Shown here: in pieces, positions 35,820 through 48,000 of the stretch
Position numbering within the stretch: the stretch's first letter is position 1
Layout of the letters: the number at the start of each line of letters is the position of its first letter
DNA from: Anas platyrhynchos
Lineage: Eukaryota > Chordata > Aves > Anseriformes > Anatidae
Reading direction: 5' to 3'
DNA length: 64,000 bases
Assembly (NCBI RefSeq): GCF_047663525.1
Contig: NC_092607.1
Coordinates: 7,225,001 to 7,289,000, forward strand
Notes under the pieces: model-generated
What the model saw: only the letters and a program-made list of their open reading frames with translations
Database searches by the model: none
What the model was told of the DNA's origin: nothing
Made by a program: the position numbers and the translations under genes

Positions 35820-36206
35820 CCCTGAGTGACTCTGCCGCTCCTGTGGCTGTTACTGCCAGGAGGGGTAGATGCGGGCAGGGGCGGGTGTGACAAATTTTAA
35901 CTTTGTCCGTCCCTTATGGGGCCGGGGAGGAAGGCCCAGACCGCGGCTGCCCTTGCTGGAGGCCGGGGCTCTGACGGGGGCTTCGTGGGCTGAGCCCGCT
36001 CCCTGTGAGGGCAGCGGCGCCGCCTCAGCCCGGCCCTGAGGGGAGCCCGGGCCCGGCCTCCAGGCGGGGCCGCGCCGCGTCCCGCAGCCAACGGGCGGCA
36101 GAGGCGGAGCGAGGCTGCCCCAGTGGCGGCGGCGGCGCGGGGCTGTTTGGATTCAAAGGCGCTATAAAGCATCCCGAGCCGGGCCGGGCGGGCAGCGAGC
36201 CGCGCC
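35820..36206 (+). promoter_or_regulatory. FAM83D: FAM83D CpG-island promoter, TATA-like box and CHR-like site
   Basis: GC content and CpG density rise sharply from about 35820. A TATAAA lies at 36163-36168, only 39 bp before the ATG, so a start set by it would give a very short 5'UTR. Just upstream, TTCAAA at 36152-36157 is TTTGAA on the other strand, the core of the cell-cycle homology region that MuvB-type complexes bind at G2/M genes. FAM83D is a mitotic gene, so this fits, but the function is inferred. The tandem copy has the TATAAA but not this TTCAAA. Confidence 0.6.
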
Positions 36207-36653
36207 ATGGCCAACCCGTCGCAGTGGCTGGAGGAGGGCGCCGGGCGCTGGCCGGAGCCGGGGCCGGGGCTGTACAGCGAGGCGCAGCGGCTGGCGCTGG
36301 AGGAGCTGGTGGCGGGCGGCCCCGAGGCGCTGCGGGCCTTCCTGCGGCGGGAGCAGCTGCCGCCCTTCCTGTCGGAGCCCGAGGTGCAGGCCATCGCGCG
36401 GGGCGCCGTGCCGCCCGCCGCGGCCGAGGAGGAGCCGCCGTCGCTCGGCGCCTCGCCGGCCGCCTCGTCGCTCACCTACTTCCCCGAGCGCTCGGACGTG
36501 GAGCCGCCGGCGCTGGAGCTGGGCTGGCCGGGCTTCGCCGCCGGCGCCTTCCGCGGGCTGACGCGGGTGGAGGCGCACTTCCAGCCGGGCTGCGGGGACG
36601 GCGGCTGCGGCTGCAAGGAGGCGGTGCGGCGCCAGATCCGCTCCGCGCGGCAG
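36207..36653 (+). CDS. FAM83D: FAM83D exon 1
   Basis: The exon encodes residues 1-149 ([14 protein letters not shown] to RRQIRSARQ), ending in phase 0 before gtgggt. It is very GC-rich with high CpG. It is identical base for base, as far as I can read, to exon 1 of the downstream tandem gene. Confidence 0.93.
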
Positions 36654-44569: not shown

Positions 44570-45016
44570 ATGGCCAACCCGTCGCAGTGGCTGGAGGAGG
44601 GCGCCGGGCGCTGGCCGGAGCCGGGGCCGGGGCTGTACAGCGAGGCGCAGCGGCTGGCGCTGGAGGAGCTGGTGGCGGGCGGCCCCGAGGCGCTGCGGGC
44701 CTTCCTGCGGCGGGAGCAGCTGCCGCCCTTCCTGTCGGAGCCCGAGGTGCAGGCCATCGCGCGGGGCGCCGTGCCGCCCGCCGCGGCCGAGGAGGAGCCG
44801 CCGTCGCTCGGCGCCTCGCCGGCCGCCTCGTCGCTCACCTACTTCCCCGAGCGCTCGGACGTGGAGCCGCCGGCGCTGGAGCTGGGCTGGCCGGGCTTCG
44901 CCGCCGGCGCCTTCCGCGGGCTGACGCGGGTGGAGGCGCACTTCCAGCCGGGCTGCGGGGACGGCGGCTGCGGCTGCAAGGAGGCGGTGCGGCGCCAGAT
45001 CCGCTCCGCGCGGCAG
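44570..45016 (+). CDS. FAM83D-like exon 1 (identical to FAM83D exon 1)
   Basis: This exon encodes [14 protein letters not shown] to RRQIRSARQ, 149 residues, with the gtgggt donor, at a constant offset of 8363 bp from FAM83D exon 1 with no mismatch or indel found by reading. The match ends 14 bp into the intron. Confidence 0.9.
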
Positions 45017-48000
45017 GTGGGTGCGCGGCGACTCCCCGGGGGCTGCCCCCGCGCTGCCTCGGCAGGAGAAAAAAGCACGATAAGTGCCCCGTCAGGGGGT
45101 GTCCCGAAGGCACGCGGGCGGTGGGAGGGCTGCGAGCACCGGGAGAGCCGTGAGGGAGCCGTGAGGGAGCCGTGAGGGCGCGTCACGGGAAAATGAACCG
45201 TAAGCTGCAGGGGAAGTTCGGGTGTATCTTAAAAAGGTGCGATGAGCAGCCACGGGTGGACGCAGGTGGGTTTTTTTCCCTATTTGGCTTCCTATTCGAA
45301 AAGTTTGAAAGATTTCGGCCCATTTATGTTTTGGAAATAAGCTCATGTTTTAAAATTTTTGTAGAGTGTTTTTAACAACAAGGGGACTGTCCTCAGGAGA
45401 AGAGCTCTTATCCAGGAATCAGAGACCAAATTTGTCTTACCCAGACGCCTCTTTTGGCACCTGGGAGGATGAAGAAAATCCTGAAGCAACACGTTTGTTT
45501 TCCGCTGGTCTGATTTGTGTGAGATCTTCTCACCCCCTGACAGCCCCCGGTGAGCTCAGTGCGCCTGTCACACCAAGCAGTGTGTGTAGCTGGAGGAGCA
45601 GTGTAGCTAAAGAAGACCAACAGCAAAATGTCTTTCTTTTTTGGACTCTTTTTACATGAGCTCGCTCAGTTTTTGGAGAGGTGTCAGTCTCCTGGATGTC
45701 CTGAGGTGTCTTTTGGACCACTCCAGAGGTTGGGGAAGAGGCAGAAATGCTCAGATCTGTGTAACTGGATCTTGAAGGTGAAGTTATGGAATAAAAAAGG
45801 GGAAGGCTTTAGTACCACCTTAATGAAAAGCCATGAGCAGTGTGTTACTGAACGGGTGTAGGAGCTCTCATTGTTGGCAGTTAGTGATGAACTCCAGTTT
45901 TTAAAAATAGTTAAGGGGTGTTTCTCCTCAACAGGCTTTCAGTCTAGTTTGCGTGTACCAGATGAACCAAACCCATACAGATCCTGGCAAAAGGAGCTTC
46001 AAAGTCGCTACAAAAACTACAGCTCTAACTACTGTAAAAAGGGAAATTTTACAATGGGTTAATAGAAATCCTAATTGATATTATCTGTTATATGTGAGTC
46101 AAGCAACACCAAAACTGGGGCAAATAGCAATGGGTTCCATCCTTGAGTTCGGTATGTACTGTTTTCTTAACTATACAGAGACATGAATAAGTGATTGTAG
46201 TGAAGTATGTTGTATCTCCTGTACCTCGGTGTACTGTAGTCTGTAATCATCTTTACCAAAATACCCTCCTCATCACATAACTTCGTTTTAGTCAGTTACT
46301 TCTTCCTTTCTCTGCTATTTCTTATACGTCTCCTAAATGTTTCAGCGGTTCTGTGAACAACAGAAGAATGCATTGTACTGTAGAAGACTGCCAGGTTGCA
46401 TAACCACCAAAGAGAAGAAAATAGGGGGGGAAATATTTAAATTCAAAGGCAAATTCCTCATGCGCCATCTCTCTTAGAATGCTGTGGAAACAGCCTAATG
46501 ATTTCTTCTGAAACTTGTTGCAGATGATTGCCTTGGTTATGGATTCCTTCACAGATACCGATATTTTCAGAGACCTCTTGGAAGCTTGTAGCCAGCGGCA
46601 AGTTAAAGCATATATCCTTCTAGATCAGTCTTCATTTTCCCACTTTCTGAAAATGTGCAGAGATCTAGGAGTTGACCTTGAACAGGAAAAGGTAAGCCTT
46701 GTGATATTTCTGGGGATAGAGAGTTGTTCCTATAATAACTGTAATCTTTGAGCTGTTAGAAGACACTTTCTTGCCTGCTGACAACTTAAATTGGGTTTTA
46801 TGTAGCTCTAACTCTCTTGTAAGATGTAACCATTCTTGCAAAAGAAGGTACTTAATAGAAAAGCTGAAATCTTTACAAGAGGCTGTCACAGTTGCTCTGA
46901 GTACAAATACTAGTGGAGCATCCAAGAAAATGAAGGAGGAATGTCTGGTTTCTAAAAGGATGACTGGAGTTGCTCAGGCTTGCTGAGCTTTCAAAGGCTG
47001 ATGGAGGATGTTCTCAAGAAGATGTGGAGTTCAGGTCCCTCTGATATTTGGCAACGTTTTTTACAATCATATTCTGCACAGCCAGCGTATGGGGTTGTCC
47101 CTTAGCATGTTTTCTCTCTGCCTGCTAAAACAATACAAAATTGTTTCTGGAGGGTGAAATCTGCACTGCTGCACAGCAACCTTTGTAGTTTGTCGGTGAT
47201 CTTTATTAGCATGTGTTACTCCTTTAAATGCAATCGTTTAACTTTGAAATTTACATAATCTTTCTACATCTTTCTTTTTAACAGTCGATGAGAATCCGAA
47301 ATATCACTGGGAATACATACTACACAAGGTCAGGTGCCAAAATTGTTGGAAAAGTCCGTGAAAAGTTCATGTTAATTGATGGCATTAGAGTGACAACAGG
47401 CTCCTACAGGCAAGTGGCAATTTCTTTTCTTTTTTTTTTAACTTCAGTTTTCTTTAAATGGACAAGAATAGTTACATTTCAAAACTACTTTCCTTATTAA
47501 CAAGCAGCTTGTAATATTTAGCCTTAAAACAAGGCACATCATTAAGAGAATTTTCAGTTAATAATCTTTAAATAAATGATATTCTTTATTATCATTTTGA
47601 ATTAACTTGAAATTTTCTCATTCTTCTTTTGCTAGTTTTACGTGGACAGATGGGAAGCTGAACAGCAGTAACATTTTGATCCTGTCAGGCCCTGCAGTTG
47701 CACACTTTGACCACGAGTTTCGGATTCTTTATGCACGGTCAAAACCTGTCAACCTCAGAGAGTTTTCCAGCAGCAAGAAGAGTAAGGTGTTGGATCAGCT
47801 GGTCAGGATAACAGTGGCTTCCAGAGACTTAACCAGAGAAAACTTCCTGAGAATGGAGTTTTTGTATCTTAGAGCATTTGTAGGAAATCTAAAAAGGAAA
47901 CGAAACTGGCTGCATGCCTCGAGGGAGGCAGTCTACGTGTCAAATAATGCAATGCATGCTTCTCCACCACTGACTAAGAGGAATGGCTCTCAAGTTATGA

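Follow-up and report, generated by a model that had tools for sequence, protein, structure and literature searches.

A core promoter and first exon identical in two otherwise diverged tandem FAM83D-type genes of Anas platyrhynchos, probably homogenized by interlocus gene conversion

Introduction

Mosaic concerted evolution has been described for the mammalian gene pairs BMP8A/B, DDX19A/B, and TUBG1/2, of which DDX19A/B are arranged in tandem, 13 kb apart; the GC content at third codon positions (GC3) of the homogenized part was reported to be significantly raised in DDX19 and TUBG but not in BMP8 (PMC2720389). In birds, the TLR1A/B and TLR2A/B genes have 96 to 99% identical codons in their converted parts versus 56 to 66% in the unconverted parts, ranges that span two avian groups and one mammalian group, and the conversions have been placed at 0 to 20 Mya (PMC3125219). 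Studies of avian recombination supply further context. Crossover density in flycatcher peaks in promoters and CpG islands, and non-crossovers show a transmission bias toward G/C (PMC4878770). Zebra finch non-crossovers occur in 1.54-fold excess near CpG islands with a bias of 59%, and their mean tract length is about 32 bp, although that study also mentions tracts whose converted sites lie 642 and 4,169 bp apart (PMC12047795).

Here we analyze two tandem genes, A and B, in a 64-kb stretch of Anas platyrhynchos DNA (the window). Near-identity within diverged paralogues beyond the reach of chance, by which mosaic concerted evolution is recognized, is what this pair displays, and it appears to be a clear new instance of that known process, set apart by its unit, a core promoter plus first exon. 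Like the mammalian pairs, which consistently have two copies, it shows a mosaic of homogenized and divergent exons and raised GC3; it differs from them, as they are presented in that report, in that their homogenized stretches cover introns as well as exons, whereas here one exon and the core promoter are concerned, and in that orthologues of many species were compared there and a single genome here (PMC2720389). With the avian TLR genes, it shares the combination of converted and unconverted parts, the identical degenerate codons under conserved residues being 145/145 in exon 1 versus 63/96 in exons 2 to 4. The TLR genes as described (PMC3125219) are, in contrast, immune receptors in which coding parts are concerned, whereas the gene here is a mitotic scaffold gene, and its unit includes a TATA box. 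Among the titles returned by our searches of open-licence papers on FAM83D in birds, none concerns the present pair. Avian CYP1A4/CYP1A5 reportedly offer a possible further parallel, which we left out of the argument.

Two tandem genes of the FAM83D type

Gene A is a FAM83D-like gene of four exons that encodes 564 aa without an internal stop. In our splice model, its coding exon 1 (36207..36653) is an open frame, exon 2 (39122..39289) has AG/GT borders, exon 3 (40257..40381) has a GC donor, and exon 4 (40739..41693) carries a TQT-rich tail and the stop. Gene B, on the same (+) strand, encodes 376 aa, also in four exons and without an internal stop: coding exon 1 (44570..45016) and exon 2 (46524..46691) are open frames, exon 3 (47285..47409) is defined by its splice borders and frame, and exon 4 (47636..48026) contains the end of the SACK1 domain, a short tail, and the stop. 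The GC donor (GCAAGT) at intron 3 is present in both genes, at 40382 and 47410.

Both predicted proteins have a complete SACK1 domain (PF07894; E-values of 3.8e-97 and 3.3e-96 for genes A and B), which extends over residues 22 to 284 and profile positions 12 to 274 of 274. The gene B protein, the one of the two queried in this way, also matches solved chains of FAM83B and FAM83A. SACK1 is the CK1-binding domain (DUF1669) of FAM83D, and the CK1-binding residues of the human protein are D249 and F283 (PMC6726907). Both proteins of the pair have D237 and F271, whose spacing of 34 is the same as in the human numbering and by which they are the predicted equivalents of those two residues. The tail of gene A has five TQT motifs, with starts at residues 375 to 426, and these we take to be dynein light chain binding motifs. 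A scan of the gene B tail for the TQT motif found none, which makes gene B a twin of FAM83D in its SACK1 domain but not a full FAM83D. Set beside FAM83D as characterized for its SACK1 domain (PMC6726907), both genes thus agree in the domain and in the two CK1-binding residues placed by spacing, and gene A also in its TQT-rich tail; the short tail of gene B, which lacks TQT motifs, departs from it. Gene B is best described as a predicted SACK1-mostly paralogue, to which we assign no role. Its tail after the SACK1 domain (within 47636-48026) gives no convincing alignment to that of gene A.

The genome contains six more genes with the same four-exon domain layout, and the exon-level family matches number 32, 8 in the A/B pair and 24 in the six relatives. 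A protein tree of exons 2 to 4, built from the matched stretches of these eight genes found in one genome, unites A and B as sisters with a FastTree local support of 0.993, and so rejects the alternative that gene B belongs elsewhere in the family instead of being a FAM83D twin. As judged from their predicted products, genes A and B are tandem FAM83D-type paralogues. Their surroundings include an upstream reading frame that ends in CRIS and helicase motifs, DEAH and QRAGRAGR, at 56.7 and 62.7 kb; these may belong to the FAM83D neighbours PPP1R16B and DHX35.

The identical block

A preliminary description of the locus had reported that the first exons of the two genes lie in blocks that read identically, and direct comparison confirmed this: 36160..36667 in gene A and 44523..45030 in gene B (both on the + strand) agree at 508/508 bases with no indel, at an offset of 8363. 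The block has a GC content of 0.795 and 82 CpG and contains the TATA box, the 5' UTR, coding exon 1, and the first 14 bases of intron 1. Its edges also lie where they had been placed, the left one 3 bases before TATAAA and the right one 14 bases beyond the end of exon 1, past the donor. Just outside either edge, the sequences of genes A and B are out of register and do not match.

When the block was searched for in the one genome analyzed, which comprises 42 contigs and 1.26 Gb, three candidates were obtained, all of which were scored, with counts that are possibly lower bounds. Two are full matches, 8363 bases apart, and the third, on C29, covers 44 bases only. In the 9.9-kb stretch around the C29 match, tblastn with either protein found nothing at E 0.01; accordingly, this match does not lie in a FAM83-like gene within those 9.9 kb, and no third copy of the block was found elsewhere. 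A self-comparison of 264 kb that includes the window returned no other block of this kind, the sole further match being a 95-base inverted one at 94.7%, and a single comparison of this extent is too little for judging how common the pattern is. One exact 30-base pattern, scanned in bacterial/archaeal and in viral contigs, gave 0 and 0 matches. Were the 132 differences among the 936 aligned coding sites distributed at random, a difference-free run of 447 sites would have a probability below 1e-38 (union bound over 490 windows); together with the 508/508 identity, this rules out a chance or low-complexity match as the source of the block.

Divergence of the remaining exons

Across the 149 codons of exon 1, genes A and B have 0 synonymous and 0 nonsynonymous differences. 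Over the 163 aligned codons of exons 2 to 4, dS is 0.82 and dN is 0.24, with the same residue at 101/163 positions. Resolved by exon, dS and dN are 2.34 (near saturation) and 0.25 in exon 2 (34/56 residues the same), 0.45 and 0.13 in exon 3 (33/42), and 0.64 and 0.32 in the first 65 codons of exon 4 (34/65). The poor matching of exons 2 and 3 noted earlier therefore holds, and our 33/42 for exon 3 agrees with the 32/41 given then because it also counts the codon that intron 3 interrupts. Differing sites number 132/489 in exons 2 to 4 and zero in exon 1, and zero also in the 61 noncoding bases of the block; at shared fourfold sites, the corresponding counts are 19/42 versus 0/101. Had exon 1 diverged as the other exons did, it would be free of synonymous differences with a probability of about 1e-37. 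Pairwise comparison of exons 2 to 4 gives a pN far smaller than pS (Fisher p 1e-8, rounded counts), so the pair has been constrained overall, a constraint that is not assignable to each gene separately.

Exon 3 (40257-40381/47285-47409) contains a 23-base identical run. It has synonymous differences at about 10/29 sites versus about 24/34 in exon 2 (Fisher p 0.006, rounded counts), and these are not fewer than in exon 4 (p 0.62). The lower synonymous divergence of exon 3 may go back to an earlier, partial conversion or to constraint acting locally; alternatively, exon 2 may be the fast one.

Block edges and flanks

GC exceeds 0.6 (400-base windows) over about 35.8 to 37.0 kb and about 44.0 to 45.2 kb; the block thus lies within longer GC-rich islands, and its edges are not island edges. 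The diverged upstream flank of gene A (36034..36143) is weakly alignable to that of gene B (44416..44522), where the alignment reaches the block edge. Its local score of 49 was attained in 0/1000 shuffles of 300-base flanks and in 2/1000 shuffles of 150-base flanks, for a signal that is GC rich and modest. At the left edge, gene A has 16 bases absent from gene B (36144-36159), so this edge may be an indel. Downstream homology is not clear, with 25/1000 shuffles for 60 bases and 454/1000 for 300 bases. The pattern of the flanks appears to fit an in-place replacement up to the end of homology better than the insertion of a cassette. Within about 1.5 to 2.7 kb on either side, no sequence stood out as a convincing relic of an earlier exon 1, the best E-values being 0.014 beside gene A and 0.050 beside gene B, each from short stretches alone; an older exon 1 surviving near gene B was rejected accordingly.

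Probable interlocus gene conversion and its alternatives

We infer that interlocus gene conversion was the copying agent. Conversion limited to this exon in the CpG island, with at least one recent event and probably repeated ones, is the best explanation of the data and a likely one. A FAM83D gene would have been duplicated in tandem long ago; exons 2 to 4, the introns, and the upstream DNA would then have diverged, and gene B would have lost the TQT tail or never had it. Meanwhile, the unit of promoter core and exon 1 in the CpG island may have been copied repeatedly between the genes, the latest copying being so recent that zero bases differ. By analogy with other birds, breaks would begin at the CpG-island promoter and their repair would favor G/C, and CpG-island promoters 8 kb apart, with an exon 1 still in common, would be suitable substrates for such exchange. 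The nature of the copied unit, an in-frame promoter core, exon, and donor, all of which both genes need, likewise argues for conversion. Recurrence since soon after the duplication is suggested because a single late event would have to pair first exons only about 73% alike, the likeness expected from exons 2 to 4, where 132/489 sites differ. The mean zebra finch tract of about 32 bp counts against this account, since a run of 508 identical bases would take either an exceptionally long tract or numerous events. Also against it stand the high exon 1 GC3 of relatives outside the pair, the unclear homology of the downstream flanks, and the finding of no other such block in the 264-kb self-comparison.

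The preliminary description had offered a choice between a recent conversion and an assembly that placed one exon 1 twice. Of these, the former is favored by the open frames, the constrained type of divergence, the sister relationship of the pair, and the GC3 excess of exon 1, which is typical of converted regions though not specific to this pair. An assembly artefact, in which one GC-rich exon 1 was set at both loci or polishing removed the few differences that two already similar copies had, would draw on the 80% GC of the block, a known hard case, and on a count of differences that is exactly zero; perfect identity by itself does not tell two true copies from a contig that was copied. However, both copies lie in continuous, differing, GC-rich flanks, the window has no N, and the bounds of the unit coincide with the promoter core and the donor of both genes, in frame with open exons 2 to 4. 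Wrong joining to both flanks would need a true second copy that matches at the edges, so an artefact inflates identity more easily than it creates it; for this reason, we consider an artefact unlikely, and its residual probability lies mostly with identity inflated from near-identity.

The sharp edges and the out-of-register flanks would also suit a single recent copy-and-insert event, in which gene B, having lost its exon 1, would have taken up a new promoter-plus-exon cassette copied from gene A (or gene A one from gene B), without conversion and with no homology required between the two old first exons. Yet the unit stands in the right place and orientation with its donor in phase, the upstream flanks weakly align up to the block as they would after in-place exon replacement, and the other exon 1 left no convincing remnant, which together make such an insertion distinctly improbable. 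Selection at the nucleotide level that kept both copies identical without exchange deserves hardly any credence: the extreme composition (GC3 149/149) does restrict the possible variants, but whether a third position holds G (92 codons) or C (57 codons) would still drift, fourfold differences are 0/101 in exon 1 versus 19/42 in exons 2 to 4, and the 61 noncoding bases are identical too.

Under interlocus gene conversion, the absence of any difference at about 184 silent or noncoding sites dates the last exchange to at most about 4 Myr ago (95% limit), with 2e-9 per site per year assumed, or to at most about 20 Myr ago if G-C exchanges alone are free, at one fifth of the assumed rate. The dS of exons 2 to 4 would place the duplication at about 200 Myr at the same assumed 2e-9. 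Given the assumed rates and the near-saturated exon 2, these dates are to be read as orders of magnitude.

Base composition of exon 1

Every one of the 149 exon 1 codons has G or C at its third position, which gives a GC3 of 1.0, the highest exon 1 value among the eight family genes. In exons 2 and 3, GC3 is 0.58 (gene A) and 0.43 (gene B), and in exon 4, it is 0.52 and 0.51. The matched parts of exon 1 in the six relatives have values of 0.957, 0.352, 0.881, 0.481, 0.815, and 0.591. One of them, on C1, for which the search found no twin, has a GC3 of 0.88 in exon 1 and 0.50 to 0.56 in exons 2 to 4; in another, on C15, the other exons (0.89 to 0.90) are nearly as high as exon 1 (0.957). Because relatives for which no twin was found can have a GC-rich exon 1 too, much of the high GC3 may stem from allelic conversion or promoter composition, and we do not count it as proof that the loci exchanged sequence. 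Raised GC3 in the homogenized part is present in this pair but is not specific to it.

Implications

If confirmed, the pair would be a compact natural test for promoter-centered recombination that homogenizes bird paralogues, with the unconverted exons dating the duplication and the converted exon timing the last exchange. Phylogenies, expression counts, and probes based on exon 1 cannot tell genes A and B apart, and exon 1 would give a wrong date for the duplication. As a tentative generalization, which we hold to be possible rather than probable, birds, which have no PRDM9, might break their DNA at CpG-island promoters such that the core promoter and exon 1 of tandem paralogues are rehomogenized over more than 100 million years, with silent sites driven to 100% G/C while the rest diverges. 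Such exon-sized, promoter-directed concerted evolution might then recur at other old tandem pairs.

Upstream motifs outside the block

A scan for 14 motifs in the 500 bases upstream of each block found TTCAAA in gene A only, at 36152-36157, just outside the block; we take it to be the cell-cycle CHR motif TTTGAA in reverse orientation. Gene B instead has GCCGCCAT and TTTCGCG, at 44397-44410, about 115 to 125 bases upstream of the block, which are presumably YY1- and E2F-like. Genes A and B may be regulated differently despite their identical core promoters.
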